Assembly: GCF_038397785.1 (NCBI RefSeq)
Contig: NZ_CP151642.1
Coordinates: forward strand, 1,674,001-1,738,000
DNA from: Salinibacterium sp. TMP30
GTDB taxonomy: Bacteria; Actinomycetota; Actinomycetes; Actinomycetales; Microbacteriaceae
DNA length: 64,000 bases
Reading direction: 5' to 3'
Part shown: in pieces, positions 41,463 through 59,403 of the stretch
Layout of the letters: the number at the start of each line of letters is the position of its first letter
How positions within the stretch are numbered: position 1 is the stretch's first letter
Notes under the pieces: generated by a model
What the model was told of the DNA's origin: nothing
Database searches by the model: none
Seen by the model: the letters and a program-made list of their open reading frames with translations, nothing else
Position numbers and translations under genes: made by a program

Positions 41463-43244
41463 TTAACCGAGCAGTGCTGCACCAACCTCAGCGATGCTGG
41501 TGCTGGTTCGCTCATTCGTGACGCGATCCCAGACCTCGACCATTCCGTTGGCAGCATCGCGGCCGACAATCACTATCTTGGGCACGCCAAGCAACTCAGC
41601 ATCGCCAAACTTTACGCCAGGTGAGACCTTGGGTCGGTCGTCGAAGAGCACGTCGAGTCCCGCACTTTCGAGCGAGGAAACCAAGCTCTCGGCTGTTTCG
41701 AAAACGACGGGGTCTTTACCTGCCGCCACAATGTGCACGTCAAACGGGCTGATGTTCTTGGGCCACAATAGGCCCTTGCCATCGTTGGTGGTCTCCGCAA
41801 TCGCCGCCATGAGACGCGTGACACCGATGCCGTATGAGCCCATCGTCACGGTGACGAGCTTGCCGTTCTCATCAAGCACCTTGAGTCCAAGAACCTCGGC
41901 ATATTTGCGACCGAGCTGGAAGACGTGACCAATCTCCATTCCCCGAGCGGTCTCAATTGGGCCGCTGCCGTCAGGAGCGGGGTCACCCGCGCGAACATCC
42001 GAGATCTCGACGGTGCCGTCATTAATGAAGTCGCGACCGGCCACGAGACCAAGAACATGCTTTTCATGGATGTTGGCTCCGGTGATCCACTGCGTGCCGT
42101 CAACGACACGAGGGTCAAGCACGAATCGAACACCGGTTGACGACTTCTCACCGATAACGGCGCCCTCGGGCGACCACGGTCCGATGTAGCCCTTCACGAA
42201 GCCGGGATTTCCCTCACGCTTCGCAAGGGCAGCGAAGTCTTCCGGTGTTGCCGCTTCGACCTCTGCCGGCGCGAAGGCAACTTCGGCACGCTTGAGGTCA
42301 ACGTCGCGGTCGCCAGGTAAGCCCACGACAACAAGCTCGCGGGATCCATCGAGGGAACTCAGAGCCAGCACAACGTTCTTGAGAGTGTCAGCTGCGGTCC
42401 ACGGACGATCCGCGCGAGGCTGCTTCTCGTTTGCCAAGGCGACGAGCGTCTCAATCGTCGGCGTATTAGGCGAATCGAAAATCAGCGGCTCAGGCAGCCC
42501 CTCAATCGGCTGCGCCTCAGGCGGAGTCGTGCGATAGGCCTCGACGTTCGCGGCATACCCTCCCGCTGAACGAACGAACGTGTCTTCACCGATCGGGGTG
42601 GGGTGCAAAAACTCTTCGCTCTTCGAGCCACCCATGGCGCCCGCATCCGCGGCAACCACGACGTACTCCAAGCCCAAGCGGGTGAAGATTCGCTCATACG
42701 CGTCACGGTGCTGCTGATACGAAACGTCGAGTCCGGCATCCGTGTAGTCGAAGGAGTAGGAGTCTTTCATCGAGAACTCACGACCCCGCAGCAGGCCAGC
42801 GCGTGGGCGCGCCTCGTCTCGGTACTTGTCCTGAATCTGGTAGAGCGCCAGCGGCAGGTCTTTGTAGCTCGAGTAGAGATCCTTCACGAGCAGCGTGAAG
42901 ACCTCTTCGTGAGTTGGGGCCAGCAAGTAATCAACATCTCTGCGGTCCTTCAGCCGAAAGATTCCATCACCGTACTCCGACCAACGGCCCGTCAATTCAT
43001 AGGGTTCGCGCGGCAAAAGCGCCGGAAAGAGCACCTCTTGCGCACCAAACGCTTCGAGCTCCTCACGAATGATCGCCTCAATCTTGCGGCGAACCTTGAG
43101 ACCGAGCGGTAACCAGGCAAACACCCCTGGTGCCTGACGGCGGATGTAGCCAGCACGCACCAAAAGACGGTGGCTGGCTACCTCAGCATCGACGGGATCT
43201 TCGCGGAGCGTGCGGACAAAGAGTTGAGAGAGACGTGTAGACAC
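41463..43244 (-). CDS. proS: Prolyl-tRNA synthetase, bacterial type
   Basis: The 593-residue class II synthetase has the bacterial opening [17 protein letters not shown], motif 2 in [25 protein letters not shown] near residue 140, a bacterial insertion (editing) domain near 225-400, motif 3 [17 protein letters not shown] near 440 and the anticodon-binding C-terminus. It charges tRNA-Pro. GTG 43244 follows TAACAT by six bases. Confidence 0.97.
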
Positions 43245-43250
43245 GCCTCA

Positions 43251-43256
43251 ATGTTA
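43251..43256 (-). promoter_or_regulatory. -10 element for leaderless proS
   Basis: Minus-strand TAACAT, six bases (TGAGGC), then GTG 43244. Confidence 0.5.
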
Positions 43257-43262
43257 GTGCGG

Positions 43263-44411
43263 CTATGGCGTGAGTACTTGCGGGCTGCCGATCTCCCCCG
43301 CGGGCATCTCCGCAGCAATCCGGTTCGCCTCTTCGATGAGGGTGGCAACGATCTCTGATTCGGGAACGGTCTTAATGACTTCACCCTTGACAAAGATCTG
43401 CCCCTTGCCGTTACCGCTGGCAACACCGAGGTCAGCTTCACGAGCCTCACCCGGACCGTTCACGACACAGCCCATGACGGCAACACGCAGCGGAACGGTC
43501 ATGCCTTCAAGACCCTCAGTGACATCGTTGGCCAGCTTGTAGACATCAACCTGCGCGCGACCACAGCTGGGGCACGAGACGATTTCAAGCTTGCGCTCAC
43601 GCAGGTTGAGCGACTGGAGAATCTGCAGCCCTACCTTGACCTCAAGAGCAGGAGGTGCCGAAAGCGAGACACGAATTGTGTCTCCAATTCCCTCACCCAG
43701 AAGGATGCCAAATGCTGTAGCGCTTTTGATAGTGCCCTGAAACTCGGGGCCAGCTTCGGTGACGCCCAAGTGCAGAGGCCAGTCCCCGCGCTCAGCGAGC
43801 ATCCGATAAGCCTTGACCATCACTATGGGGTCATTGTGCTTGACCGAAATCTTGAAATCATGGAAGTCGTGCTCTTCGAAAAGGCCCGCCTCCCAGACAG
43901 CACTCTCGACGAGTGCTTCTGCAGTGGCCTTGCCGTACTTCTGAAGAATGCTTGGCTCAAGTGAACCGGCGTTGACACCGATTCGCAGGCTCACGCCGGC
44001 ATCCTTCGCAGCTTTCGCGATATCGCCAACCTTGTCATCAAACTTGCGGATGTTGCCCGGGTTTACGCGAACAGCGCCCACCCCGGCATCAATCGCCGAG
44101 AACACGTAGCGCGGCTGAAAGTGAATGTCGGCAATAACGGGAATCTGGCTCTTCTTCGCGATGATGTGCAAGACATCCGCGTCGTCCTGATGAGGAACCG
44201 CGACTCGAACAATGTCACAGCCCGAGGCGGTAAGTTCGGCGATCTGCTGAAGAGTTCCGTCGATATTCGTGGTCTGCGTTGTAGTCATTGACTGCACGCT
44301 GACTTGCGAATCGCTGCCGATTCCTACCGAACCGACCTTGATCTGGCGGGTCTTGCGACGAGGAGCGAGGACTTCGGGAACTTTCGGCATTCCAAGATTG
44401 ATTGCTGGCAC
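43263..44411 (-). CDS. ispG: 4-hydroxy-3-methylbut-2-enyl diphosphate synthase
   Basis: The 382-residue protein has the GcpE/IspG TIM barrel ([33 protein letters not shown]) and the C-terminal [4Fe-4S] cysteines in [11 protein letters not shown] and [10 protein letters not shown]. It converts MEcPP to HMBPP in the non-mevalonate isoprenoid pathway, together with dxr in this window. GTG 44411 follows TAGACT by six bases, so it is transcribed independently of the catabolic genes upstream. Confidence 0.96.
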
Positions 44412-44417
44412 TATTCC

Positions 44418-44423
44418 AGTCTA
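44418..44423 (-). promoter_or_regulatory. -10 element for leaderless ispG
   Basis: Minus-strand TAGACT, six bases (GGAATA), then GTG 44411. Confidence 0.6.
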
Positions 44424-44451
44424 GAGCCGACTCCTGAACAACAGCGGAACG

Positions 44452-45510
44452 CTAGTCAACGGCGAGGTGCGCGCCGAGCACCTCAAGGAACTCTGCCGGA
44501 CGTTCAAGATGCGCCGAATGTCCACACTCTTCCCACGCGAGTTCGGTATAGCTGCCGCCGTTCGCGGCATACTTATCAAAAACGGCTCGGGTCTGCTCGA
44601 TCATCGGCTGCGGTGGGGCAACCTCGGCACCTGGCCACCCGGGGATAACGCCCAATTGCCCCAAGAAGTTGAGATCAAAACCTGACGCATCCGAGACGAT
44701 GGCGTCGTTGATGCCGCGAACCCACAGCACGGGAGGTTTGCTCGCCAATTCAGCTATTCCGCTGACGTTGAAGTGGTCGGGCGTCATGGTGTTGAGCACG
44801 CCGCGGCCGCCAGGTCCGAAGCCTGGCCACGCATCCACCGCAACAGAGTCGCCAGGGTAATTGTCTTCGCCCGTTGCCGTCGTGAGCATCGATTCGACCC
44901 ACAGATCTTCATGCTCGCTGTGAGCTTCCGGATGTGCCACGTAGGCCGTGCGAAATACCATCCGCGCGGATGCCGGAGAGTCGTCGCTCGTGTTTCCCGC
45001 AGTCAATTGGGCAATAAACTCAGGGTTCGCTCCCCCGCCACCGGTGCCGGGGCACTCCGCGGCAAGGAGCTCGCCAGTCGCTCCCTTTGTGCCACCAAAC
45101 CCGAATGGCGAGACAGGCGAAACGAAGGTTGCCGTGGAAACGCGCTCAGCGTGATCGAGCATGAACTGCATCACCACGCCACCGCCCATGCTCCATCCGA
45201 CAAAGTTTGCGCGCTCCACTCCGAGCGAATCAAGAACTGAAGCCACGTCGTCAGAAAAATCGCGAACGCCACGCGTGGCATCCACTGGCAAGGTTTCGCT
45301 TTCACCAAAGCCTCGAAGGTCAATTGCCAAGGCCCGCACTCCGCTGTTGAGGCCGAGCATCGTCGGCTGCCAGAACAGTGAAGAAGAGACGTTGCCGTGA
45401 ACGAAGACGACGGTGGATGTTGCGGAGTCTGCTGGCCGTTCGAGCACTGACGCGACGAGTCGCGGAGTCGTGACGCTGTGCTGAACGATGCCGTCGAGAA
45501 GAGTAGCCAT
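44452..45510 (-). CDS. Alpha/beta hydrolase (island, 1)
   Basis: The 352-residue protein has FVHGNVSSSLFW (oxyanion loop) near residue 37, the nucleophile Ser in VGWSMGGGVV near 107, and the His in EECGHSAHLERP near 332. A glycine-rich insertion (PGTGGGGANPEF) precedes a cap domain of about 100 residues. It lies 52 bases after scoB, with AAAAGGA before its ATG, and is the last gene of the island. It may hydrolyse an ester or oligomer of the substrate the transporter imports; the substrate is unknown. Confidence 0.85.
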   Translation of the reverse strand: MATLLDGIVQHSVTTPRLVASVLERPADSATSTVVFVHGNVSSSLFWQPTMLGLNSGVRALAIDLRGFGESETLPVDATRGVRDFSDDVASVLDSLGVERANFVGWSMGGGVVMQFMLDHAERVSTATFVSPVSPFGFGGTKGATGELLAAECPGTGGGGANPEFIAQLTAGNTSDDSPASARMVFRTAYVAHPEAHSEHEDLWVESMLTTATGEDNYPGDSVAVDAWPGFGPGGRGVLNTMTPDHFNVSGIAELASKPPVLWVRGINDAIVSDASGFDLNFLGQLGVIPGWPGAEVAPPQPMIEQTRAVFDKYAANGGSYTELAWEECGHSAHLERPAEFLEVLGAHLAVD

Positions 45511-45562
45511 GGGGTGTCCTTTTAGTTGGTAAAACTGCGGGGAGTACGGGTATTCAGGAAAT

Positions 45563-46207
45563 CTATGCCGAAATAAGGTCTACGGTCAGCTCGGGCTCAG
45601 TTGCCGCCCGAACGGTTGCTTCGTCAACGCCGGGGGCGAGCTCGCGCACAACGAGCCCACCGAGTGTGACGTCGATTACCGCGAGATCGGTGATGATGCG
45701 GTGAACAACACCGCGACCGGTGAGCGGCAGCGAGCACTCGTTAACGATCTTGGGAGTGCCGTCCTTGGCGACATGCTCCATGAGTACGATGACGCGAGCC
45801 GCACCGTGCACCAGATCCATCGCGCCGCCTGGCCCCTTGACCATCTTGCCGGGGATCATCCAGTTGGCAAGATCGCCGGCGACGGAAACCTGCATTGCGC
45901 CCAAAATGGCCGCGTCTATCTTGCCGCCGCGAATCATCCCGAAACTCATCGCAGAATCGAAGAAGGCCGTGCCCGGAAGGGTCGTGACGGTCTCTTTGCC
46001 CGCATTAATCAGGTCAGGGTCGACGTTCTCTTCTGTGGGATACGGCCCAACCCCCAGAATGCCATTCTCCGACTGCAGTACAACCGTGCGGCCCTCTGGC
46101 ACATAGTTGGGTACGAGCGTCGGCAACCCAATGCCCAAGTTCACATACGAACCATCAGCCAACTCGAGCGCGGCACGAGCCGCCATCTCTTCGCGTGTCA
46201 AAGCCAT
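45563..46207 (-). CDS. scoB: 3-oxoacid CoA-transferase subunit B
   Basis: The 214-residue subunit has the catalytic Glu47 in [13 protein letters not shown] and the [14 protein letters not shown] block. With the A subunit it moves CoA from succinyl-CoA (or another acyl-CoA) to acetoacetate. A 3-oxoadipate CoA-transferase (pcaJ) is the main alternative; the adjacent 3-hydroxybutyrate dehydrogenase favours acetoacetate. Its ATG shares one base with the stop of subunit A. Confidence 0.9.
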
Positions 46208-46983
46208 TACGCCACCCCCTGCCGCACAGTGCGACGTTCGATTCTCTTCTCGACATCGGAACCCACCTCGATCACTCGCGAAACGTAGACGCCCGGCAAA
46301 TGCACGGCATCCGGCTCAATTTCGCCAGGCTCGACAAGTTCTTCGACCTGAGCCACGCAGATGCGACCGGCCATAGCGGCGAGCGGCGAGAAGTTGCGCG
46401 CTGACTTAGCAAAAACAAGATTGCCGTGACGATCACCCTTGAGTGCGTGCACGAGCGAGAAATCTGTAGTGATCGACTCTTCGAGCACGAACTCTTTCGC
46501 AGCTCCCTTGACCTCGAAAGTGCGAACCTCTTTCTGAGGCGACGCAATCGCGATGCCACCCGCACCGTCGTAACGACGAGGCAGACCGCCCTCAGCAACC
46601 TGAGTTCCCACCCCCGTCTGAGTAAAGAATGCGGCAATCCCCGAACCGCCAGCGCGAAGTTTTTCAGCGAGCGTGCCCTGTGGCGTCAACTCAACCTCAA
46701 GCTCGCCGGTCAAGAACTGGCGCTCAAACTCCTTGTTCTCCCCAACATACGACGACGTCATCTTGCGGATGCGGCGAGCGCCAAGCAGCACGCCCAAGCC
46801 CCAGTCATCGACACCACAGTTGTTGCTCACGATGCTCAAATCGTCGGAGCCTAACTCCAGCAGCGCCTGGATCAGAACCATCGGATTACCGCAGAGGCCG
46901 AAACCTCCCACCGCAAGAGATGCCCCGTTCGGAATATCGGCGACAGCCTCTGCCGCCGACCCCACTGTCTTATCAATACTCAC
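46207..46983 (-). CDS. scoA: 3-oxoacid CoA-transferase subunit A
   Basis: The 258-residue subunit has [16 protein letters not shown] near residue 26, [14 protein letters not shown] near 54 and [13 protein letters not shown] near 195, as in SCOT A subunits. It is coupled to the hydrolase upstream by a 4-base overlap and to scoB by one base. Confidence 0.92.
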
Positions 46984-47888
46984 GCTCGGACCTCCCGGGG
47001 TTGACTCGTCAAAATTTCATTCATGACGCCCGCAACACGATCTGCACCACGCGGTGTCAAAGTAATTGTGTAGTGGTTGACGTCAACCGCCTCATGAAAA
47101 ATCACATTCGGAAGTTCGGAACGCCAGTGGTCACGCTGTTCCGGAGAATACAACGCGGGCACCTGATTGAGAAGACCCCGAGGTGCCCGAATGAAATGTA
47201 CCGGAACCGTCAGCCCTCGAAGAGCGCCAAGATAATGCTCATCCCCACTCAGCTGGAGGGCATCGAAACTCACCGCGGCGATATTACTCGCCGGATGCAG
47301 ACTGGGCTCGGAGCCGACTAGATCGTAATCCACATAGTCACGCACAGCACTCGTAAACTCCTGAGCAAACGCCGGATGCTTTTCCCAAAAATTTTGATAA
47401 CTCGCACGATCAACAAACGTCATCGACAGTCGCTCAGCAGCGGGCCCCAAAATCACCTGGGGAAGCTCCTCAACCGAAGTTCCCTCCGGCGCAGGAATGG
47501 GCAAACCGCCGTCAATGAGGATCAACGCGGACACACGCTCCGGATACTGCGCCGCCAAGCTCGCAGCGACGAAACCACCCATCGAATGCCCAACCACGAG
47601 CGCCGACGCCGTATCTGTCGCCGCCAACAGCGCGTTCATGTCTGCGGCGTGCTGCGGCATCCCGAACGGCGCCGGAAGGTCCCGGCTTGCACCGCGCCCT
47701 CGCAGATCGGGAGCGATGACCCGATACTCAGGCAAGGCGGCCGCGATAAGCGGCCACGACATGTGCGACGCCGTGATGCCGTGAATGAGCAGGATGGTGC
47801 CCTGAGGCTTCGAATCTGGCTCCCAGATCGCGGCCGTGAGTTCGCCACCCTCGACGGGGCACCGGATAGTTCGATAGTGCTGAGTCAT
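46980..47888 (-). CDS. Alpha/beta hydrolase (island, 2)
   Basis: I use ATG 47888, which overlaps the stop of the dehydrogenase gene as ATGA; the longer frame reads back into it. The 302-residue protein has LLIHGITASHMSW near residue 33, the nucleophile in VVGHSMGGFVAASL near 97 and the His in VNHYTIT near 280. No signal peptide. Placed between 3-hydroxybutyrate dehydrogenase and the CoA-transferase, it might split 3-hydroxybutyrate oligomers or esters, which is inference. Confidence 0.85.
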   Translation of the reverse strand: MTQHYRTIRCPVEGGELTAAIWEPDSKPQGTILLIHGITASHMSWPLIAAALPEYRVIAPDLRGRGASRDLPAPFGMPQHAADMNALLAATDTASALVVGHSMGGFVAASLAAQYPERVSALILIDGGLPIPAPEGTSVEELPQVILGPAAERLSMTFVDRASYQNFWEKHPAFAQEFTSAVRDYVDYDLVGSEPSLHPASNIAAVSFDALQLSGDEHYLGALRGLTVPVHFIRAPRGLLNQVPALYSPEQRDHWRSELPNVIFHEAVDVNHYTITLTPRGADRVAGVMNEILTSQPREVRA

Positions 47889-48631
47889 CGCGCGCTCCAG
47901 CCGCCATCCATCGTGTATGAGGCGCCCGTAACCATTCCGGCGGTGTTGCCGGCAAGCCACAAGACAAGATCAGCAACTTCCTCGGGTTCAAGCAATCGTT
48001 TGATGGCGCTCTCTGTCAGCATCACCTTCTCCACAACTTCAGATTCCGGGATGCCGTGCACTTTCGCTTGATCGGCGATCTGCTTCTCGACCAACGGGGT
48101 GCGCACATACCCGGGGTTCACGCAGTTGCTCGTGACGCCGTGAGCTCCACCCTCCAGCGCCGTAACCTTGGAGAAACCTTCCAGCGCGTGCTTCGCAGCA
48201 ACATAAGCCGATTTGTACGGTGACGCCCGCAATCCGTGCACAGAGCTGATGTTGATGATGCGACCGAACTCACGCTCGTACATTCGAGGCAAAGCGGCCC
48301 GCACGAGCAGGAACGGTGCCTCAATCATGAGATCGAGGATGCGGCTGAACATTGCTGGCTCAAAGCTCTCAATCGGACTCACGTGCTGAATGCCGGCATT
48401 GTTGACGAGAATGTCGATGTCGAGGCTGAGGTCTGCAAGGGCAGCCGTCTCGGTGAGGTCAACCTGCCAGGCGTCGCCGCCGATCCGGTTCGCTTGGGCG
48501 GTAGCTGCGTCGCCGTTGAGATCGGCAACGATCACGTGTGCCCCCGCGTTCGCAAGCGACACGGTACACGCGGCACCAATCCCGCTGGCACCACCGGTTA
48601 CGAGGGCCCTGCGTCCCGAAAGATCGGTCAT
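47885..48631 (-). CDS. 3-hydroxybutyrate dehydrogenase
   Basis: The 248-residue classical SDR has TGGASGIG at 12-19, NNAG at 77-80, Ser130, Tyr143 and Lys147 (YVAAK). NNAGIQHVSPIESF and the GYVRTPLVEKQIADQA block are typical of bacterial 3-hydroxybutyrate dehydrogenases, which oxidise (R)-3-hydroxybutyrate to acetoacetate with NAD+. The C-terminal GASYTMDGGWSAR also fits. Overlaps of four bases link it to the genes on either side. Confidence 0.9.
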   Translation of the reverse strand: MTDLSGRRALVTGGASGIGAACTVSLANAGAHVIVADLNGDAATAQANRIGGDAWQVDLTETAALADLSLDIDILVNNAGIQHVSPIESFEPAMFSRILDLMIEAPFLLVRAALPRMYEREFGRIINISSVHGLRASPYKSAYVAAKHALEGFSKVTALEGGAHGVTSNCVNPGYVRTPLVEKQIADQAKVHGIPESEVVEKVMLTESAIKRLLEPEEVADLVLWLAGNTAGMVTGASYTMDGGWSAR

Positions 48632-49284
48632 TTCTCGACTCCTGAACTGCTCGACTCCGGCACAGCCAGAGCACGGCGAATAAATGTGATCATGTGATCG
48701 AGAACATCATCGGGAACTCGTGAGGTTCCACTTGCGGTCGGATCGGCATCATTGCCTGCAGACGGTGAGTCGCCCCACAACACCCACCGCATCCCAATCA
48801 TTTCGCCAATCCCCATGAGCGCCCACGCTGCGACAGTCGGATCAATATCGCCAACCTCACCCAGCAACTGTGCTTCTTTGAGCCCCTCGATGTAGCCATC
48901 GACAATGCGCGAATAGTGCAGCCGCAGTGATTTGGGTGACACGAATTCGGCCTCACGAACCACTCGGTAGAGCGCCGGGTGCTCGGCCGTGAATTCAAAG
49001 AACGCACGAAAACCTGCACGCTCCGATTCGATCCGATTGGATGCCGCACCCGAGGCTTCGCTCAGTGCTCGACGAACGCGGCGGTTGAGATCCTCAACGA
49101 GTTCTTCAAAAATCTCAAGCTTGCTCGCGAAATAGAGATAAAACGTGCCCTGACCAACACCCGCTTCTTCTGTGATGCGCACGACGGACGCATCGGTATA
49201 GCCGTAGCGCGCGAAGACGGTTTCGGCTGCCTCAATCAGCTTCGTCTTGGTGCGGGTGCCGCGAGCGGTGAGTGGTGTGTTCAT
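48628..49284 (-). CDS. TetR-family regulator of the island
   Basis: ATG 49284 overlaps the stop of the acyl-CoA synthetase gene (ATGA). The 218-residue protein has a TetR HTH (ARYGYTDASVVRITEEAGVGQGTFYLYFASK) and a ligand domain of the fatty-acid or CoA-responsive type by length only. It is in the middle of the operon and probably represses it; a palindrome at 55520 is the likely operator. Confidence 0.87.
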   Translation of the reverse strand: MNTPLTARGTRTKTKLIEAAETVFARYGYTDASVVRITEEAGVGQGTFYLYFASKLEIFEELVEDLNRRVRRALSEASGAASNRIESERAGFRAFFEFTAEHPALYRVVREAEFVSPKSLRLHYSRIVDGYIEGLKEAQLLGEVGDIDPTVAAWALMGIGEMIGMRWVLWGDSPSAGNDADPTASGTSRVPDDVLDHMITFIRRALAVPESSSSGVEK

Positions 49285-50843
49285 GAACTGATCCGTCCTG
49301 CTTGTGCGGACTCTGATGTCCATTGGCCGAGCAGCACACGACGGCGCGCCTTGTCACTGGATGAGCGCGGGATCGACTCCACGAACATCACACGCTTGGG
49401 TACCTTGAATTTCGCCAGGGAAGCACGAGCAAAATCGAGCAGGTCGGTCTCGTCGGTTGACGCGCCCGAACGCACTACAACCCAGGCCACGGCAACTTCG
49501 CCCCATTGCTCGTCTGGCACCCCAACGACAGCGACATCGGCAACGGCGGGATGACCGAACAGCACACCCTCAATTTCGGCAGGAGCGACCGACTCTCCCC
49601 CGGTGATGAAAATGTCTTTGATGCGATCAAGCACGCGGTAGTAGCCTTCGGCATCCCTGCTCACTAAGTCACCCGTGGCAAGCCAGCCATCGCGAAGCGC
49701 GAGTGCGGTTGCTTCGGGTGCACGAAAGTAGCCGCTGAAAACACCGGGGCCGCGCACAAGCAGCTCACCCTGTCCCGCGCCCTCAATGCGTTCCCCCGTA
49801 ACCGAGTCAGCAATGTCGACGTCGACGTGCGGATACGGTTTTCCCGCAGAACCGATGCGAACCCGTGCTTCTTCATCGGGAAGACACAACACGTTGGGGG
49901 CGGCTTCGGTGAGTCCATAGCCCTGCGTGAGCGCAACGCCCCGGCTGTGCCACACCCGCAGAAGCGGTTCGGGCATGGGGGCGCCACCAACAATCGCGTG
50001 CGCGAGACTCGAGAGGTCACTGAGCGCAAACCGCGGATGCTGCGACAAGATCAGGTAGTTGGCTGGCACGCCCATCATGGTCGTGATGCGGCGATCGGCG
50101 ATGAGTTGAAGGACACGTGCAGGGTCGAAGGTGCGCTCAAGCACGACCGTGGCCCCCATCCACCAGGCCAGCAGCGGCTGAATATTCCAGCCCCCCACGT
50201 GGTACTGAGGCATAACCGCGAGCACCGTATCGGCACTCGTAATCTCAGCGGTGCGCGATAGCGAGAGGTTAGTCCAGAAGCAATTGGAGTGACTCAGGAT
50301 GGCACCCTTTGCGTGGTCAAGAGTTCCCGAAGTGAAAACAATAAGGAGTGCATCGTCGTCGCGCACTGCTCGCCGCACGGGCGGCGTCGCGTCGTTTCGC
50401 AGCGGGGCAACAATGTCGCGCTCGATACCGTGCGTTCCGAGAATGCCGCGGGCTATGGGGGCGATCAGTCGATCCTCCGCGAGACTGGCGAGAGTCGCAA
50501 ATTCGTCTTCCACCAACAACAGCGCTGGATCTGCCTGTTCGAGCTGTTGTGCGATCTCCCGCGGAGAGAGGCGCCACGAGAGCGGCACAAGCACGAGACC
50601 CGCCTTAGCACAGGCGAAGAACACCACAACGTGGTCAGAACTGTTTCCCGTAATCGTGGCGATGCGATCGCCAACACCGTAGCCGCCATCGAGAAAAGCC
50701 TCGGCGAGTGCAGTGGCTCGATCATCCAGTTGGCGGTAGGTCAACACCACGCCGCGGTCGTCGACGGCAACACGCTCAGGAGTGGCGATGGCGCGGTCAG
50801 AGGTCCACCGCCCTAACGTGTGTAGCCCATCAGGCTGACTCAT
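49281..50843 (-). CDS. Acyl-CoA synthetase (AMP-forming)
   Basis: The 520-residue ANL-family enzyme has VFTSGTLDHAKGAILSHSN near residue 168, where the usual TSGTTGxPKG is altered to TSGTLDHAKG while the Lys is kept. Later motifs are QGYGLTEAAPNV near 310, YRVLDRIKDIFITGGESVAPAEIE near 405 and KFKVPKRV near 490 with the catalytic Lys region. It activates a carboxylic acid with ATP and CoA. The substrate is unknown; a short or medium hydroxy- or branched acid fits the context. Confidence 0.88.
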   Translation of the reverse strand: MSQPDGLHTLGRWTSDRAIATPERVAVDDRGVVLTYRQLDDRATALAEAFLDGGYGVGDRIATITGNSSDHVVVFFACAKAGLVLVPLSWRLSPREIAQQLEQADPALLLVEDEFATLASLAEDRLIAPIARGILGTHGIERDIVAPLRNDATPPVRRAVRDDDALLIVFTSGTLDHAKGAILSHSNCFWTNLSLSRTAEITSADTVLAVMPQYHVGGWNIQPLLAWWMGATVVLERTFDPARVLQLIADRRITTMMGVPANYLILSQHPRFALSDLSSLAHAIVGGAPMPEPLLRVWHSRGVALTQGYGLTEAAPNVLCLPDEEARVRIGSAGKPYPHVDVDIADSVTGERIEGAGQGELLVRGPGVFSGYFRAPEATALALRDGWLATGDLVSRDAEGYYRVLDRIKDIFITGGESVAPAEIEGVLFGHPAVADVAVVGVPDEQWGEVAVAWVVVRSGASTDETDLLDFARASLAKFKVPKRVMFVESIPRSSSDKARRRVLLGQWTSESAQAGRISS

Positions 50844-51919
50844 TCCGCCTCCTCAAGCTGCTTGCGAGCAGCCGGCGAGACACTAGTGCCTGTTCCTAGG
50901 CGCTGTGCTGCACCGGCAATTCCTCCGGGAAGGAACAACACCACAAGGATAAACAGCGTGCCGAGAATAAAGAGTGGTTCTGAGAGAGGAATCCGCAAAA
51001 CTGCCGGAAGTCCGGCGATCGCCTCGGAGCCTGCGAGCGCTGTAAGCCGCTGATCGAGCAGCGTGTAAACGATTCCGCCGACGATCGCACCCCACCGGGA
51101 ACCGACACCTCCGAGCACCACAATCACCAAGATCGTGAGGGTAAAGTCTGCTGAGGTTGCCCGTGGAGTTGTTCCACTCTGCAGCAGCAGATGAACCATT
51201 CCGACAAGCGATGCCAGCACTGACGCGATGACGAACGCCATCAGCTTTACGCCGAATGGGCGCAAACCGAGCACGCGCACTCGCAACTCATTCTCGCGAG
51301 TTGCCGTCACCGCATGGCCCGCGCGGGAGTTCTCAAACCAGGCAACAATGACGAATACAATCACCAACAGCGCAAGAGCGAGCCAGTAGAGATTACGGGT
51401 GTTGATCACACCGATGAAGAAGTCGGGAATGTGCTCGGTATCGAGACGCAATCCTTCCTCTCCCCCCGTGACGGAGGGGTTGCGCCGCACGAGCACATTC
51501 CCTGCCTGGGCGAACGCCAGGGTGACCATCGCAAACGAGATTCCGGTGACTCGCAAGCTCAGTGCGCCAAGGAGATACGCGGCGGCAATGACGACCGCAA
51601 GTGTGAGCCCTAGCGCCGGAATCAGGGTGAGCTCGGTCTGCTGGAGCACAATCCCCAGTCCGTAGGCTCCGAGCGCAAAGTAGAGGGCGTGACCGAAGGA
51701 GAGCATCCCTGCAGTGCCAAACAGCAGATGGTAGCTGAGAGCGAGCGAAGCGAACAACAACGCTAATGCGAGCAGTTGCAGGGTCCCCGGCGTGTAGGTG
51801 GCCCCCGGCAGCACCCCGGGAATCGAAATATTCAGCAGAGGCAGGACCGCGGCAAACACCACGAAGGCACCACCCACGATCCACCACGTGCGTTGGCTGA
51901 GGTTCGTGAGCGACTTCAT
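50840..51919 (-). CDS. livM: Branched-chain/carboxylate ABC transporter permease LivM
   Basis: The 359-residue permease has about ten transmembrane segments with the LivM loop EEGLRLDTEHIPDFFIG and the EAA-like TRENELRVRVLGLRPFGVKLMAFVI. It pairs with LivH. It overlaps livH and the acyl-CoA synthetase by four bases each. Confidence 0.92.
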   Translation of the reverse strand: MKSLTNLSQRTWWIVGGAFVVFAAVLPLLNISIPGVLPGATYTPGTLQLLALALLFASLALSYHLLFGTAGMLSFGHALYFALGAYGLGIVLQQTELTLIPALGLTLAVVIAAAYLLGALSLRVTGISFAMVTLAFAQAGNVLVRRNPSVTGGEEGLRLDTEHIPDFFIGVINTRNLYWLALALLVIVFVIVAWFENSRAGHAVTATRENELRVRVLGLRPFGVKLMAFVIASVLASLVGMVHLLLQSGTTPRATSADFTLTILVIVVLGGVGSRWGAIVGGIVYTLLDQRLTALAGSEAIAGLPAVLRIPLSEPLFILGTLFILVVLFLPGGIAGAAQRLGTGTSVSPAARKQLEEAE

Positions 51920-52791
51920 GCTTTCTTCCCCAAAATTCCGGTCGGGCGGACCAACAGCACGATGGCAAGCAGCAGAACAACCATCAGGTCACCCGTGCCG
52001 CCGAGAAAATAGTTGGCAAACTGCTGCAGGATCGCGACCACTACCGAAGCAATCGCCGCGCCCGCGAGTGAACCCAAGCCACCGATCACCGTGACAATGA
52101 ACGCGAAGATCAGCAGGGATCCGCCCAATTGTGGTGAGACATAACCGAAATAGTGCGAGGCGAGAACCCCACCGAGGCCGGCCGCAGCACCACCGATAGC
52201 GAAAACAACGGTGAAGGCCTTACGCACATCAATACCCAAGGCGGTGACCATTGAACGGTTCTCGACACCGGCCCGAATGACCAAACCGAAGCGGGTGTAC
52301 CGCAAGAATGCGACGATTCCGAGCAGCACGAGCACGGCAGCCCCGATGAGCAAGAAGCGATCGTTGGGAACTCGTGCCCCCAAAATTTCTGTCGTCTGTG
52401 ACAGCCACGGCGGTGCCGTGACATAGATCGCGTCGGTGCCCCAGATGCCCTCAAACAGGGCGACCGTCGCGAGCGCCAGACCAACAGTCACGAGCACTTG
52501 CTCGATGTGCCGGTTGTACAAGCGTCTAATGAGCAAAAACTCGGTCGCGGCCGCAACGAGTGCGCCCACCACCATTCCGAGAAGCAGAGAGGCGATCAGC
52601 GTGCCCCAGCTTTCGCCGCCCATCCGCCTCGCCAACTCCCACCCCGCAAAAGCGCCGAGCGTGAGGAAGGATCCGTGGGCAAAATTCAGCACACCCATGA
52701 GGCCATAGATCAGTGAAAGACCGGATGCCACGAGGAAGTACAGCGCACCAAGCCCCAGACCCGTAATCAACAGGAGAATTATGGTGCTCAT
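51916..52791 (-). CDS. livH: Branched-chain/carboxylate ABC transporter permease LivH
   Basis: The 291-residue permease has the LivH opening GLGALYFLVASGLSLIYGLMGVLNFAHG and RAGVENRSMVTALGIDVRKAF, the ATPase contact loop. With LivM it forms the membrane channel. Confidence 0.93.
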   Translation of the reverse strand: MSTIILLLITGLGLGALYFLVASGLSLIYGLMGVLNFAHGSFLTLGAFAGWELARRMGGESWGTLIASLLLGMVVGALVAAATEFLLIRRLYNRHIEQVLVTVGLALATVALFEGIWGTDAIYVTAPPWLSQTTEILGARVPNDRFLLIGAAVLVLLGIVAFLRYTRFGLVIRAGVENRSMVTALGIDVRKAFTVVFAIGGAAAGLGGVLASHYFGYVSPQLGGSLLIFAFIVTVIGGLGSLAGAAIASVVVAILQQFANYFLGGTGDLMVVLLLAIVLLVRPTGILGKKA

Positions 52792-53522
52792 GCGACCCCT
52801 AGCAATTCTTTAGTCAACGCTTCATTGCCGAGCAGTTCCTCGGCGCTGCCGTCGTACACGACGCGTCCGCCTTCAAGCACGATGGCTTTCTGGGCGAGCC
52901 TCCGAACGACCTGAAGATTCTGTTCAACAAGCAGCACTGGCACTGTTTGAGCTGCCCGTTCAAGCGCGCGAGCCACATCCATCACAATCAGCGGGGCAAG
53001 TCCCTTAGTGGGCTCATCAACGAGCAGAACGCGGTTGTCGTTAACGAGGGCGCGAGCCAGTGACACCATCTGCTGTTGTCCCCCAGATAGCGTGCCCGCG
53101 AGTTGCCCGGCCCTAGCGGTGAGGTCAGGAAAAAGTTCAGCGATCAGTTCGCGATTCGGCGATGAATCTCGCTCCGCGAGTCGCAGATTCTCGGCCACCG
53201 TGAGCGAAGCGAAAACTTCGCGATCCTCGGGCACATACCCGACACCGCGCTGAACGATTCGATGAGTGGGTTCGCGATCGATTCGGTCACCGGCGAGGGT
53301 CACTTCGCCCGAGCGTTCAATGAGCCCCATGATTGCCCGGAGCGTGCTCGTCTTGCCAACACCATTGCGTCCCAGCAGAGCGGTCACTCCCACCGGGAGC
53401 ATCTCAAAGCTCACCGACTCAACAACCTGCTGGCCCTCAATGCTTGCGTTGAGATCCTTGACCGTCAGGATGGATTCCGTGACGGCTGCTGCCGTCGGTG
53501 TACTGTCGATCGATTCGGTCAT
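52788..53522 (-). CDS. livF: ABC transporter ATPase LivF
   Basis: The 244-residue ATPase has Walker A GRNGVGKTST, the signature LSGGQQQMVSLAR and Walker B VLLVDEPTKGLAP. LivF typically lacks the C-terminal extension found in LivG. Confidence 0.93.
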   Translation of the reverse strand: MTESIDSTPTAAAVTESILTVKDLNASIEGQQVVESVSFEMLPVGVTALLGRNGVGKTSTLRAIMGLIERSGEVTLAGDRIDREPTHRIVQRGVGYVPEDREVFASLTVAENLRLAERDSSPNRELIAELFPDLTARAGQLAGTLSGGQQQMVSLARALVNDNRVLLVDEPTKGLAPLIVMDVARALERAAQTVPVLLVEQNLQVVRRLAQKAIVLEGGRVVYDGSAEELLGNEALTKELLGVA

Positions 53523-54274
53523 AGTGGTGCCCCCAAATAAGCCTTCTGCACCGCTTCGTCTGCCATCACGGCCTCCGGGGTGTCACACGCGAGCAACTGA
53601 CCGTGGTGCATAACCGCAACGCGGTCAACCAAGCCAAGAACAACATCCATGTGGTGTTCCACCATGAGCACGGTGCGCCCCGACTTATGAACCTGACGGA
53701 TTACCTCGCTAAGCCCGGCAACGTCACCAGAAGCGACCCCGGCCATCGGCTCATCGAGCAAAATCACGCTCGGATCGGTTGCGAGCAGCATCGCGATTTC
53801 GAGTTTGCGTTTGTCACCGTGCGAGAGCACACCCGCGAGCGTCTCGCTGTGGTGGCCCAATCCAACTTCATCGAGTCCCGCCCGGGCAATCGTTGTTGCC
53901 GCATCGTTCGGCCGCGGAAAGCGCAGCACCGAAGTGGCACCGCCCAGTTTCACTTGAGCTGCCAGTCGCACGTTCTCCACGGCGCTGAGCGCCGGGAACA
54001 GACTGGATGTTTGAAAAGTTCTGCCGAGCCCAGCCCGGGCTCGCGCATCAATGGTCTGATTCGTGACGCTACGCCCCTCAAGAGTGACGGTTCCGCTAGT
54101 GGGTGTCATCACCCCGGAGATGAGGTTGAATAGCGTGGTCTTTCCGGCCCCATTGGGGCCGATCACGCCGAGCATCTCGCCCTGGGAAACCGAGAGTGAC
54201 ACATCATCGATGATGACGGCACCGCCGATTGTGAGGGCAAGGTGCTCGACCGTGAGCACGGGCTGGTTCGACAT
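53519..54274 (-). CDS. livG: ABC transporter ATPase LivG
   Basis: The 251-residue ATPase has Walker A GPNGAGKTTLFN, a signature-like LSHGDKRKLEIAM in place of the usual LSYGQQRRLEIA, Walker B VILLDEPMAGV and the H-loop MVEHHMDVV. The length and C-terminus are of the LivG type. Confidence 0.93.
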   Translation of the reverse strand: MSNQPVLTVEHLALTIGGAVIIDDVSLSVSQGEMLGVIGPNGAGKTTLFNLISGVMTPTSGTVTLEGRSVTNQTIDARARAGLGRTFQTSSLFPALSAVENVRLAAQVKLGGATSVLRFPRPNDAATTIARAGLDEVGLGHHSETLAGVLSHGDKRKLEIAMLLATDPSVILLDEPMAGVASGDVAGLSEVIRQVHKSGRTVLMVEHHMDVVLGLVDRVAVMHHGQLLACDTPEAVMADEAVQKAYLGAPL

Positions 54275-54288
54275 AGCTTCTGAGCTAC

Positions 54289-55479
54289 TTACTCTGCGAT
54301 GGGCGGGGTTACGGTGTCAGCGTCAACTGCCGTGACCAGCTCAGGCGTCCATGAGTTACCATCAGCGACAAGCGTTACCTGGAACATCGGCTGGATCATT
54401 GCGTGGTCTTCAGCACGAACCGTGATCGATCCCTTGACGGAGTCGAAAGTCCATCCCTCAAGAGCGGCGATCATTGCGTCGACATCGTCGCCACCTTCGC
54501 GCACGGCCTGAACAACCATCTGAGCGGCAACGAATCCGTCAGGCGAGAAGAGGTCTGCCTGCTTGCCCTCAGCTTCGAGGAAGCTGACCATGGCCGTGTT
54601 GGCATCGTTGTCAGTTGCACCACCGAAGTAGTGGTTGAGGAAGCTAATCTTGTCACTCGCGGGGCCATAGGCACCGTAAGTCGAGACGTCGCCAAGACCG
54701 GTTGCTACCGGAACGCTATCGAACACGCCCTGCTGGCTGAGCGCTTCCCACATCGCTCCGGAGGTTGCTCCAGCCCACGCAACGAACACGAGGTCAGGCT
54801 GGGCGTCAACGATCTGCTGCGCGAACGGGGTGAACTCTGTTGCGTCTTCGGGAACGAGCAAACTCGTCACGTCAGCGCCTTGGCCGCCGAGCACGGCAGT
54901 TGCCGCAGCAACGTTGCCTTGACCGAATGCGGTGTCCTGGGCGAACACGAGAACCGACTTGCCTGCAGGATCACCGATGAAGGTACCTGCGGTGGCAACG
55001 TCTTGGTAGCTCTGACGCCCCGACCGGAACGTGTAGCTGTTGACGCCGGTAATGGCATCAGCGGCGGCGGGGCCTGAAATGTAGAGCACCTTGTTCTGCT
55101 CAGCCTGTTCGGCCAATGCCAAGGCGATTCCGGATGACACGGTGCCGATGATGATCTTCTTACCTTGACCGATTACATCCTTGGCCGCGGTAACGGCCTT
55201 GTCTGCGTCTCCGGCGTCATCAGTGATCTCAATGTTGAGTTCGCGGCCGTCGACGGTGCCTGTGCCGTCGGTGGCGTAGTCGAGACCGGCGTCGAAGCCA
55301 GCGAGGTAGGCCTCGCCGTAGGCCGCGAGGGGGCCGGTTTGTGAAGTGATGATCGAAATGTCGACCGGAGCGAGTTCATCGCCACCCGATCCGGTGTCAA
55401 CGCTGGGGGCACAGCCCGCCAGTGTGAGTGCAACCGTCGCAATTAACGCCGGAGCGAGGTACTTTTTACTGACCCGCAT
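54289..55479 (-). CDS. livK: ABC transporter substrate-binding lipoprotein LivK-like
   Basis: The 396-residue protein has a lipoprotein signal with LTLAGC and Cys23, then a Leu/Ile/Val-binding-type periplasmic fold (VDISIITSQTGPLAAYGEA; NIEITDDAGDADKA). Such proteins also bind aromatic, hydroxy and short-chain acids, so the ligand is open. It is the first gene of the operon, with GGAAAGG before ATG 55479. Confidence 0.9.
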   Translation of the reverse strand: MRVSKKYLAPALIATVALTLAGCAPSVDTGSGGDELAPVDISIITSQTGPLAAYGEAYLAGFDAGLDYATDGTGTVDGRELNIEITDDAGDADKAVTAAKDVIGQGKKIIIGTVSSGIALALAEQAEQNKVLYISGPAAADAITGVNSYTFRSGRQSYQDVATAGTFIGDPAGKSVLVFAQDTAFGQGNVAAATAVLGGQGADVTSLLVPEDATEFTPFAQQIVDAQPDLVFVAWAGATSGAMWEALSQQGVFDSVPVATGLGDVSTYGAYGPASDKISFLNHYFGGATDNDANTAMVSFLEAEGKQADLFSPDGFVAAQMVVQAVREGGDDVDAMIAALEGWTFDSVKGSITVRAEDHAMIQPMFQVTLVADGNSWTPELVTAVDADTVTPPIAE

Positions 55480-55519
55480 GATGGGACCTTTCCTGCTGCC
55501 TTAGGAGGATTGTGATCTG

Positions 55520-55541
55520 AACCTGAGACCCGGTTCAGGTT
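55520..55541. promoter_or_regulatory. Palindrome between livK and the divergent thiolase
   Basis: AACCTGA (55520-55526) and TCAGGTT (55535-55541) are perfect inverted arms across 8 bases; TGAACC (55518-55523) and GGTTCA (55532-55537) form a second overlapping pair. It is the natural place for the TetR operator controlling both directions. Confidence 0.55.
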
Positions 55542-55546
55542 TCATG

Positions 55547-55553
55547 TAGCCTA
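55547..55553. promoter_or_regulatory. Overlapping -10 hexamers of the divergent promoters
   Basis: TAGCCT (55547-55552) on the plus strand and TAGGCT (55548-55553) on the minus strand overlap and lie just beside the palindrome. The plus hexamer would start thiolase transcription near 55559. Confidence 0.4.
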
Positions 55554-55606
55554 TGGTTGCACAACCTCGCTGTCAACAACGGCACATAAACAAAGGAGTT
55601 TGCACA

Positions 55607-56803
55607 GTGGCCAACACCCCTGCACCCAACGATGTAGTAATCCTTTCCGCGACTCGCACCCCACAAGGGAAACTGCGCGGACAACTAGGTTCCCTTACCG
55701 CCGTCGAGCTCGGCGCTGTCGCACTTCGCGCCGCCGTCGAACGCTCCGGAGTTGATGTCGACAACATCGATCAGGTGATCTTCGGACAAGTGATTCAAGC
55801 CGGTGCCGGCCAGAACCCCGCACGACAGACCGCCATCGCAGCAGGACTCGCCTGGAAGACCCCCGCCGTCACGGTCAACAAAGTCTGTCTCTCGGGACTT
55901 GCCGCCATCGTGGATGCTGCGCGCCTCATCCGCCTCGGCGAAGCCGACGTTGTTGCTGCCGGTGGTCAAGAATCAATGACTAATGCCCCACACGTGCTCC
56001 CCGGGTCACGCACGGGCTGGGCCTATGGCACTGTCTCCGCGCTCGACTCCGCTGCCCATGATGCGCTCACCGACGCGTTTGATGCTGAGTCGATGGGTGC
56101 GAGCACCGAACGCCACAACGGCCGCCTCACCATCGGCCGCACCGAGCAGGACGAAATAGCCGCCGCTTCGCATCAGCGTGCCGCCGCCGCGATTGAGGCA
56201 GGCATTTTCACTGACGAGATCGCTCCTGTCACGATCCCACAGCGCAAGGGCGACGACCTCGTTATCGACACCGATGAGGGCGTTCGCGCCACCACTACAG
56301 TCGAGACTCTGGCCGGCCTGCGCCCTGCTTTCGACCCGGAAGGGACCATCACCGCCGGCAACTCGTCGCCCTTGAGCGATGGAGCTTCCGCCGTGATTTT
56401 GGCCAGCCGCTCATGGGCTGAAGAACACGGTCTCACCTGGCTGGCAGTGCTCGACCGGTCGGGTCATGTCGCCGGCCCCGACAACTCCCTGCACTCTCAG
56501 CCCGCACGCGCAATCGCTGCGGCACTCAAGAACGCCGGGTGGACGGCGGAAGACCTCGACTTCGCGGAAATCAACGAAGCATTTGCGGCAGTGAGCCTGC
56601 GCTCAACCGCCGAACTCGGGCTCAGCCACGACATCGTCAATATTCACGGTGGTGCAATTGCGATCGGACATCCCGTCGGGGCATCCGGGGCACGACTCGT
56701 CGTGCACGCAGCTCACGAACTCGCTCGCCGTGGCTCAGGTCGCGCCGCTGTGGCACTCTGTGGTGGTGGCGGTCAGGGTGACGCGCTGCTGCTAACTCGC
56801 TAG
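55607..56803 (+). CDS. Acetyl-CoA acetyltransferase (thiolase)
   Basis: I use GTG 55607 with AAAGGAG eight bases upstream; a longer frame to 55553 enters the promoter. The 398-residue thiolase has nucleophile Cys94 in VNKVCLSGLAA, GGAIAIGHPVGASGAR near 350 with the His, and CGGGGQGDALL near 385 with the second Cys. It splits acetoacetyl-CoA to two acetyl-CoA, completing the pathway of the divergent operon. Confidence 0.94.
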   Translation: MANTPAPNDVVILSATRTPQGKLRGQLGSLTAVELGAVALRAAVERSGVDVDNIDQVIFGQVIQAGAGQNPARQTAIAAGLAWKTPAVTVNKVCLSGLAAIVDAARLIRLGEADVVAAGGQESMTNAPHVLPGSRTGWAYGTVSALDSAAHDALTDAFDAESMGASTERHNGRLTIGRTEQDEIAAASHQRAAAAIEAGIFTDEIAPVTIPQRKGDDLVIDTDEGVRATTTVETLAGLRPAFDPEGTITAGNSSPLSDGASAVILASRSWAEEHGLTWLAVLDRSGHVAGPDNSLHSQPARAIAAALKNAGWTAEDLDFAEINEAFAAVSLRSTAELGLSHDIVNIHGGAIAIGHPVGASGARLVVHAAHELARRGSGRAAVALCGGGGQGDALLLTR

Positions 56804-56848
56804 CGTTGCGCCGGTTGTCGACGTCTGGCTGCCGGTGAGGTTGCCGTT

Positions 56849-56888
56849 GCGGTTGCGGTTCGATCCCTCGGGCTCGGGCTGCAACCGC
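56849..56888. terminator. Possible terminator between thiolase and rseP
   Basis: gcggttgc (56849-56856) and gcaaccgc (56881-56888) can pair across 24 bases, between convergent genes. The long loop and lack of a T-run make this weak. Confidence 0.35.
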
Positions 56889-56893
56889 TGCTC

Positions 56894-58222
56894 TTAGAAG
56901 ATCGAGATCGGCTTCACAATGTCTGCATAGATGAGTATCGCGCTCATGGCCCCGAGCAGCACCACGACGACGAGAGTCAATGGGATGATCTTCGCTGTGT
57001 CCACTGGGCCAGGGTCGGGCCTGCCGAAAAGCTTCGCAAAGAACCGACGAATACCCTCATAAAGCGCTCCCGCGACGTGCCCGCCATCCAGCGGCATCAG
57101 CGGAACAAGGTTGAAAACAAACAGGGCGACGTTAAGCGAGCCAATCAAGCCTACGAGTGACGCCACGCGGCTTGCAACCGGAGTGGACTCAAGACTAGTG
57201 ATTTCACCGGCGATACGGCCGACACCAACAACACTGATCGGACCATTAGGGTCGCGCTCGTCAGGGCCAAATGCCGCATTCACGACGTCGATCATGCGCT
57301 GCGGAAGATTCAGAATGACGTGGGTTACGGCGACGACGTTCTCGCCCACCGCGGGCAACACAGCGGTCGCTGGCTGGCGCACGATCTCAGACGCCGCACC
57401 GATTCCTAAGAATCCGTAGTTCTCGGTCTGGGCGACACCATCGGCATCCTCAACGATCTGACCCCGGTCATCGTAAACGTAACGTTCCGTGAGAAGTGGC
57501 TCTGCGACGAGCGTCACTTCGGCTCCGTCGCGTTCAACGACAATTGTGAGTTCTTTGCCTGCTGCAGCACGGATGTAGTCCGTGGCTTCAGCCCAGGAGG
57601 CCACAGGGTTACCGTCCATCGCAACGAATCGGTCGCCCGGGAGTAGCCCTGCGGCAAAGCCTGGTGCTTCAGGGTCAGTGCTCTCGCACGTCTGGCGCTC
57701 GGAGGTCGCTGCGAGAACACACTCGGAGACGCTACCAATCGTGGTGGAAGTTTGAGCCACGCCGAATCCCATGAACAAGATCGCGAACATGACTACTGCA
57801 ATCAGTAAGTTCATGACGGGGCCGCCAAGCATGATGACAACGCGCTTGAGCACCGGAAGTTTGTAGAAAGCACGCGATTCGTCGACATCGACGAGCGTGT
57901 CAGCACTCGCCGTGCGGGCATCCTGAACCAGCGCTTGGAACATGCCGGTCGTGGCAGTACGACCTTTGTCGTTTGCCTTACCGGGAGGATACATTCCTGC
58001 CATCGCGATATAGCCACCAAGTGGGATTGCCTTAACCCCATATTCGGTCTCACCACGCTTGCGGGAGAAGATAGTCGGACCAAAGCCAATCATGTACTGA
58101 CTAACCCGCACCCCGAAGAGCTTTGCCGGCAGCAGATGACCGATTTCGTGCAGGCCAATCGACACGGCAAGACCCACAACGACAACGAGGATGCCGAGGA
58201 TGTACAAGAGCACGTTTTCCAC
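56894..58222 (-). CDS. rseP: Site-2 intramembrane zinc protease (M50, RseP/Rip1-like)
   Basis: The 442-residue protein has HEIGH at 25-29, a PDZ domain near 175-265 (GDRFVAMDGNPVASWAEA), and NLVPLMPLDGGHVAGALYEGIRR near 385 with the third ligand Asp. It cleaves membrane-bound anti-sigma factors and other substrates, as mycobacterial Rip1 does. It keeps the usual position next to dxr. GTG 58222 follows TATTCT by six bases. Confidence 0.94.
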   Translation of the reverse strand: MENVLLYILGILVVVVGLAVSIGLHEIGHLLPAKLFGVRVSQYMIGFGPTIFSRKRGETEYGVKAIPLGGYIAMAGMYPPGKANDKGRTATTGMFQALVQDARTASADTLVDVDESRAFYKLPVLKRVVIMLGGPVMNLLIAVVMFAILFMGFGVAQTSTTIGSVSECVLAATSERQTCESTDPEAPGFAAGLLPGDRFVAMDGNPVASWAEATDYIRAAAGKELTIVVERDGAEVTLVAEPLLTERYVYDDRGQIVEDADGVAQTENYGFLGIGAASEIVRQPATAVLPAVGENVVAVTHVILNLPQRMIDVVNAAFGPDERDPNGPISVVGVGRIAGEITSLESTPVASRVASLVGLIGSLNVALFVFNLVPLMPLDGGHVAGALYEGIRRFFAKLFGRPDPGPVDTAKIIPLTLVVVVLLGAMSAILIYADIVKPISIF

Positions 58223-58228
58223 TCGCTA

Positions 58229-58234
58229 AGAATA
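58229..58234 (-). promoter_or_regulatory. -10 element for leaderless rseP
   Basis: Minus-strand TATTCT, six bases (TAGCGA), then GTG 58222. Confidence 0.5.
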
Positions 58235-58314
58235 GCCACGCGCACCGACGCCGACCTGTGCCAGCGCTGTGGAAGCGTCGGAACTACCCCGCACTGGGGG
58301 TGTGACTAGGGCGC

Positions 58315-59397: not shown

Positions 59398-59403
59398 TCC
59401 GCT

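Follow-up and report, generated by a model that had tools for sequence, protein, structure and literature searches.

A conserved Liv-type transporter island in Salinibacterium sp. TMP30 with a probable role in the uptake and breakdown of poly(3-hydroxybutyrate) products

The genome of Salinibacterium sp. TMP30 is a single contig of 2,685,429 bases, and a stretch of 64,000 nucleotides from it (positions 1674001–1738000; the window, below) holds a compact island at window positions 44452–56803 in which a Liv-type importer is joined to enzymes of 3-hydroxybutyrate metabolism. An earlier note on this DNA had counted twelve genes; the families it named are all present, and the genes number 13, with a 12-gene run on the minus strand (livK-livG-livF-livH-livM-acs-tetR-hbdh-abh1-scoA-scoB-abh2) and a divergent thiolase gene on the plus strand (Table 1). 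The importer set is complete and adjacent, comprising a binding protein, two permeases, and two ATPases. Three likely corrections of start codons were read from the sequence: abh1 to ATG 47888 (was 47960), tetR to ATG 49284 (was 49323), and the thiolase to GTG 55607, with AAAGGAG just upstream. With these starts, neighboring genes overlap by 4 bases (ATGA or GTGA) at eight of the 11 minus-strand junctions, which fits a single transcript. The thiolase frame opens with an ATG at 55553, within the livK promoter, so automatic annotation may add 18 residues to the thiolase (window 55553–55607).

Table 1. Genes and promoter elements of the island (window positions)
Feature	Position	Strand	Description	Basis
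livK	54289..55479	-	Lipoprotein substrate-binding protein (Peripla_BP_6), lipobox LAGC	
livG	53519..54274	-	ATP-binding subunit	
livF	52788..53522	-	ATP-binding subunit	
livH	51916..52791	-	Permease	
livM	50840..51919	-	Permease	
acs	49281..50843	-	AMP-dependent acyl-CoA synthetase	Nearest solved: feruloyl/fatty-acyl-CoA synthetase
tetR	48628..49284	-	TetR-family regulator, proposed binder of operator 55520-55541	
hbdh	47885..48631	-	D-3-hydroxybutyrate dehydrogenase	TIGR01963, substrate residues
abh1	46980..47888	-	Alpha/beta hydrolase, probable oligomer/ester hydrolase	Pfam Abhydrolase_1
scoA	46207..46983	-	3-oxoacid CoA-transferase subunit A	TIGR02429, SCOT-named PDB matches
scoB	45563..46207	-	3-oxoacid CoA-transferase subunit B	TIGR02428, PDB 3cdk_B
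abh2	44452..45510	-	Alpha/beta hydrolase like intracellular PHB depolymerase, box GWSMGG	
thl	55607..56803	+	Acetyl-CoA C-acetyltransferase (thiolase), divergent; start was 55553	TIGR01930, 427.7 bits
Putative operator	55520..55541		Palindrome AACCTGA-N8-TCAGGTT between livK and thl	
livK promoter	55548..55576	-	TTGACA 55576-55571, 17-base spacer, TAGGCT 55553-55548	Read from sequence

The 3-hydroxybutyrate dehydrogenase (HBDH) narrowly exceeds the cut-off of TIGR01963 (312.9 vs. 307.05 bits) and falls short of that of the more stringent NF009931 (246.7 vs. 340 bits). Aligned to 1wmb, its residues Q82, S130, H132, K140, Y143, and Q184 coincide with Gln94, Ser142, His144, Lys152, Tyr155, and Gln196 of the Pseudomonas fragi enzyme, which we take to bind D-3-hydroxybutyrate, and each of the six is kept in at least 97% of 63 aligned relatives. 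ScoA and ScoB score over the cut-offs of TIGR02429 and TIGR02428, families that also hold 3-oxoadipate transferases; their closest PDB chains are 3-oxoacid CoA-transferases (SCOT; 3cdk_B for ScoB), and we read the pair as a probable SCOT. Abh2 is a relative rather than a member of the intracellular depolymerases of short-chain-length polyhydroxyalkanoates (scl-PHA; NF050089). Its closest PDB matches are the poly(3-hydroxybutyrate) (PHB) depolymerase structures 8ynv and 8ynw, which we take to be the intracellular enzyme from Bacillus, presumably with the same GWSMG box that Abh2 carries. Residues 31–142 of Abh2 align to the N-terminal part of these structures, from which it differs in having 352 residues and 100 bits against the 300-bit family cut-off. 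Abh1 matched Abhydrolase_1 only, with no specific match. The context of an abh2 relative in Streptomyces was set aside, as the adjoining lipase-like gene gave only 23 bits to PhaZ7, too weak to use.

In a family sample of 299 genomes from 85 genera, LivK matches (E up to 1e-40) were found in 32 genomes of 18 genera, the window's included. We fetched and mapped the loci of the 31 relatives. The order of the genes present was kept in 30 of them, with single genes absent in some; in the 31st (L038) the contig ends just after livK and the order cannot be judged. Because of this kept order, the genes form a unit far beyond chance, as the earlier note had supposed. The same order, sought in related genomes, recurs mainly in Micrococcales. 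In the family, acs and tetR are absent from the cluster in a single locus (L039), and the thiolase gene adjoins livK in 16 of the 31 loci, lies after scoB in L061, and would fall on the contig-cut side in L036. A scan of named genomes, restricted to the best 80 of 213 relatives and to loci reaching ∼10 kb from livK or the contig end, likewise found the genes together, with lower bounds of at least 77 loci for abh1, 73 for acs, 72 for tetR, 64 for hbdh, 59 for abh2, 52 for scoA, and 50 for the thiolase. All three loci without abh1 (L106, L120, L155) end at a contig edge before its place. Some relatives have clusters without SCOT, thiolase, HBDH, or acs with tetR, so the constant core consists of the transporter and abh1.

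The record titles of the named loci include Agromyces, Cryobacterium, Microbacterium, Georgenia, Arthrobacter, Cellulosimicrobium, Promicromonospora, Nocardioides, and a Propionibacteriaceae metagenome-assembled genome. Against the LivK of marine actinobacterium PHSC20C1, the window's protein shows 97% identity, and against those of six Salinibacterium loci, S. amurskyense among them, 94%–96%. Other CoA-transferases of genomes with SCOT-less clusters are mostly distant (27%–51% identity for scoA), and closer ones were seen only in G228 (scoA 82%, scoB 86%) and G078 (64% and 72%). A replacement of lost SCOT by acs was considered and rejected: there is no strict exchange, and the clusters of L117 and L147 lack both.

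On the livK strand, TTGACA-N17-TAGGCT is followed, 6 bases further on, by the palindrome AACCTGA-N8-TCAGGTT, a position typical of repressor sites. We defined the putative operator core as the 20 bases ACCTGA-N8-TCAGGT and used the reversed pattern as a control. Within 250 bases 5' of livK, the best core in the 31 relatives had no mismatch in 23 cases, one in five, two in two, and four in one; the last belongs to L039, the locus without tetR, and the window's own core is perfect. Across the 32 whole genomes, perfect cores amounted to 30 sites in 24 genomes, compared with one for the reversed control, and 24 of the 30 stand at livK. Of the six others, three precede PHB-depolymerase genes (G145, G197, G283), one precedes a thiolase gene (53% identical; G223), one precedes a second Liv transporter and itself follows a TTGACA-N17-TACTTT promoter (G006), and one, in G001, has no evident partner gene. 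Cores with one mismatch, among the matches listed, are near the reversed-control counts, that is, close to chance, so counts were restricted to perfect sites or to sites already before a partner gene. One-mismatch sites in G265, G174, G119, and G049 were tried as markers of relocated thiolase genes and discarded, as no thiolase lay nearby.

The palindrome and tetR tend to be lost together. In five of the 80 named loci (L107, L117, L135, L147, L150), the interval from livM to hbdh holds neither acs nor tetR, and none of these loci has a site with at most one mismatch, compared with 69 of the 72 loci that have tetR (the exceptions are L102, L105, and L133; Fisher p 2.8e-6 across 77 loci, the contig-cut L106, L120, and L155 left out). 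The loci are related, and the p-value therefore overstates the case; going by genus, without a tree, our guess is four independent losses. The association recurs in sister clusters of Alphaproteobacteria. Of six plasmid loci, four have an annotated TetR in the cluster (L179, L180, L184, L186); here the palindrome starts 36–68 bases ahead of the gene for the binding protein and, in three of the four, appears again at the start of tetR, with one or two mismatches. The two loci without such a TetR (L183, L185) have no palindrome. Identity to the window's TetR is 45% for the protein of L179 and 41% for that of L180. Two-mismatch sites served only for position in these loci, and they also occur elsewhere in the scanned loci (two in L186, three in L178, one in L173, three in L177). 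On the strength of the co-loss and the alphaproteobacterial recurrence, we propose that the island's TetR binds the palindrome.

The same site links the island to secreted PHB depolymerases. The protein encoded behind the second site of G145 (P0001, 458 aa) scores 169.3 bits against the 150-bit cut-off of NF050058, the extracellular type-1 scl-PHA depolymerases, and the G283 depolymerase scores 171.4 bits; proteins of this kind have signal-like N-termini, as judged by eye. Depolymerases of the P0001 type occur in four of the 299 family genomes (three of one genus), all of which carry the island, and the site stands upstream of the depolymerase gene in all four (perfect in three, with one mismatch in G082). 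In G082 (L063 5837–6037; C2:660836–661036), a second copy consisting of the C-terminal part only (70% identical) adjoins the secreted depolymerase gene. Outside the family, a depolymerase gene lies beside or inside the cluster in four of the 80 named loci: In two Cellulosimicrobium loci (L166, L170) and in Promicromonospora (L169), this gene and livK point away from each other, and the site between them has one, one, and no mismatches, respectively; in Nocardioides (L162), the gene follows abh1. This shared operator and neighborhood, along with the kept HBDH residues, supports more strongly than the earlier note could the path from 3-hydroxybutyrate or its oligomers to acetyl-CoA that was drawn there. 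PHB synthase (PhaC_N) was found in none of the 32 genomes, which makes it unlikely that the intracellular-type hydrolases serve a storage polymer.

LivK scores 62 bits against the 477-bit cut-off of the NCBIfam amino-acid binding model. Its top structure is 3n0x, to which it aligns structurally at 35% identity; the name of that protein, RPA4397, has no occurrence in the open-licence literature searched. Arg155 (in RSGR) is invariant in 19 aligned LivK proteins and is not Arg in Escherichia coli LivJ or LivK, and Thr260 aligns with the Glu of E. coli LivJ that presumably binds the amino group of the ligand. Beyond the Actinomycetota, the alphaproteobacterium Mariluticola has an annotated HBDH directly before its sister transporter, and in Deinococcus an HBDH (47%) adjoins Liv transporters of more distant kinship, on plasmids with two such transporters and an abh2 homologue (48.6%); the contexts in Halalkalicoccus, Rhodococcus, and Chloroflexota were uninformative or mixed. 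We also noted another Liv-type transporter, whose binding proteins form a subfamily of their own and which recurs in the same regulon or neighborhood in three phyla (L187 7441–7460 and 9023–10273, in G006; L117 4178–5410; L184 6615–7817; L173 24077–25315). In L179, L184, and L186, MaoC- and crotonase-type hydratases could together convert (R)- to (S)-3-hydroxyacyl-CoA.

We consider it likely that the island is a regulated operon for the uptake and catabolism of products of extracellular digestion of PHB, a bacterial storage polymer and commercial bioplastic. Secreted depolymerases, their own in some relatives and probably those of other organisms here, would release (R)-3-hydroxybutyrate and short oligomers, which the LivK lipoprotein would bind and LivHMGF import; the window genome may scavenge the products of other organisms' depolymerases. 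In the cytoplasm, Abh1, helped by Abh2 where present, would split the oligomers. HBDH, by its family and substrate residues, would convert 3-hydroxybutyrate to acetoacetate; SCOT and the divergent thiolase, by family, would carry this on to acetoacetyl-CoA and acetyl-CoA. A probable task of the acyl-CoA synthetase is to activate some of the imported acids, perhaps 3-hydroxy- or 3-oxo-acids of greater chain length. TetR would repress at the palindrome just 3' of the livK −10 element until an intermediate, which may be an acyl-CoA, releases it.

Several observations weigh against this interpretation. The acyl-CoA synthetase has no place in a simple 3-hydroxybutyrate pathway, and its nearest solved relatives are feruloyl- or fatty-acyl-CoA synthetases. 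The fold matches of LivK include leucine-binding proteins and are uninformative on ligand class. Eight of the 31 family loci (L035, L036, L039, L045, L046, L048, L051, L052) have no SCOT genes between abh1 and abh2, and HBDH is absent from the cluster in two (L051, L052), yet both of these genomes have HBDH elsewhere. HBDH occurs in just one alphaproteobacterial locus of the six, and in its stead four have acs, MaoC, and enoyl-CoA hydratase, as would suit a broader substrate; other hydroxy or fatty acids may be the cargo of the wider transporter family. Searches of the window genome for PF10503 and for depolymerases of the P0001 type, the only depolymerase types searched, gave no match. PF10503 is over its cut-off in five of the 32 genomes, and the remaining 27, the window's among them, have no match above it. 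The fifth of these genomes, G036, has a protein that is not P0001-type at E 1e-20, and for the PF10503 proteins of G036, G078, and G265 (the latter two under the cut-off), no site with at most one mismatch lies nearby among the matches listed. The self-contained island of the earlier note therefore holds for the products of PHB digestion; it does not extend to the depolymerase, and pathway genes are missing from some relatives' clusters. Overall, the interpretation in the earlier note is partly supported.

The chances we give to three alternatives overlap with that of the operon for PHB products and are not meant to sum to one. The first is nested within it: The cargo could be mainly the 3-hydroxybutyrate monomer (or acetoacetate), with the hydrolases acting as esterases on minor substrates. 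This would suit the HBDH orthologue, with a single match (E up to 1e-50) per genome in all 32, and the position of HBDH in Mariluticola directly beside the transporter. However, a hydrolase is needless for a monomer, Abh2 resembles a PHB depolymerase, and abh1 is the most constant enzyme gene of the best 80 loci, ahead of hbdh and scoA (at least 77 vs. at least 64 and 52). We find this alternative unlikely and, because of the constancy of abh1, lean toward oligomers as the cargo of LivK. A partly overlapping view, doubtful in our judgment, is that of a general importer of hydroxy or fatty acids or esters, activated by the acyl-CoA synthetase, for which 3-hydroxybutyrate would be one substrate of several and PHB use a lineage-specific addition. 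The four alphaproteobacterial sister clusters fit it well, being made up of transporter, hydrolase, TetR, acs, MaoC, and enoyl-CoA hydratase under the same kind of operator with no HBDH or SCOT, as do the Liv-type proteins of Rhodopseudomonas palustris that bind fatty acids, as given in the part of the source available (PMC3223731). Against this, the partner genes in Actinomycetota are repeatedly specific to 3-hydroxybutyrate and PHB. Uptake of branched-chain amino acids with leucine-type catabolism is very improbable: LivK belongs to the Liv family by a fold shared with leucine-binding proteins, and SCOT and thiolase could process acetoacetate derived from leucine via 3-hydroxy-3-methylglutaryl-CoA, but the island, to which the search for them was confined, has no leucine-pathway genes, Thr260 takes the place of the LivJ Glu with its presumed amino-group role, and the link to PHB depolymerases tells against it.

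Extending the operon reading to other phyla, we tentatively suggest, at somewhat less than even chances, that 3-hydroxybutyrate oligomers (or oligomers of related hydroxy acids) have dedicated carriers in two Liv-type subfamilies, which occur in Actinomycetota, Alphaproteobacteria, and Deinococcota and which, in the former two groups, are controlled by a TetR that reads AACCTGA-N8-TCAGGTT. Some of these bacteria would secrete a depolymerase under the same switch; many, this genome included, would have lost it or never had it, and would scavenge.

One protein with the same proposed role as LivK, ALC24_2082 of Alcanivorax sp. 24, is presumably a tripartite ATP-independent periplasmic (TRAP) transporter protein. 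Together with ALC24_2998, this binding protein was raised on PHB and proposed for 3-hydroxybutyrate uptake; in the available part of that report, it is annotated as an alpha-keto-acid solute-binding protein, which sets it apart from the Liv-type LivK (PMC7187450). ALC24_2998, for which no family is named there, may be related to LivK. According to the accessible sections of a 2021 review, no bacterial importer of 3-hydroxybutyrate is known save the presumed Bacillus subtilis HbuT, a further protein with this proposed role (PMC8000602). A route in which PHB is degraded outside the cell and the products pass through HBDH, SCOT, and thiolase is outlined in PMC13373117, as far as its available text goes. 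The steps from 3-hydroxybutyrate to acetyl-CoA are those of the island, and the likeness extends to the type-1 scl-PHA depolymerase that some relatives secrete, its gene being preceded by the same operator; the island differs in adding a Liv-type ATP-binding cassette importer and two hydrolases, and in a host genome with no match to such a depolymerase. Known LivKHMGF importers, including the aromatic- and fatty-acid binders of R. palustris, have the same fold and subunit set, whereas the island's is coupled to PHB-product genes. In R. palustris, 22 COG0683 proteins with ligands off their annotation bound other amino acids or aromatic, fatty, or dicarboxylic acids, in the portion of the study available (PMC3223731). 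The view in the earlier note that a ketone-body or PHB link would be a new class for the Liv family thus needs amending; for Liv-type binding proteins, 3-hydroxybutyrate would add a new substrate, and classes other than amino acids are already on record. Titles and the starts of abstracts in the open-licence literature yielded no tie of a Liv-type transporter to PHB or 3-hydroxybutyrate.

The island lies within a dxr-rseP-ispG-proS run, flanked by rseP/dxr on one side and ispG/proS on the other. This housekeeping run (window 41463–60431) surrounds the island at the same spot in many relatives; in L046 the island is placed beyond ispG, on the opposite side from usual. The G+C content is even across the island (59%–60%), and such a flat base composition bears no mark of recent import, so recent horizontal import judged by composition was set aside.

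The cluster provides a concrete candidate for a 3-hydroxybutyrate importer with its regulator and operator, linked to PHB depolymerases. Its importer family is usually labeled an amino-acid transporter; here, it probably imports PHB fragments. If true, a bacterium with the uptake system and no depolymerase would be a natural scavenger of PHB degradation products.

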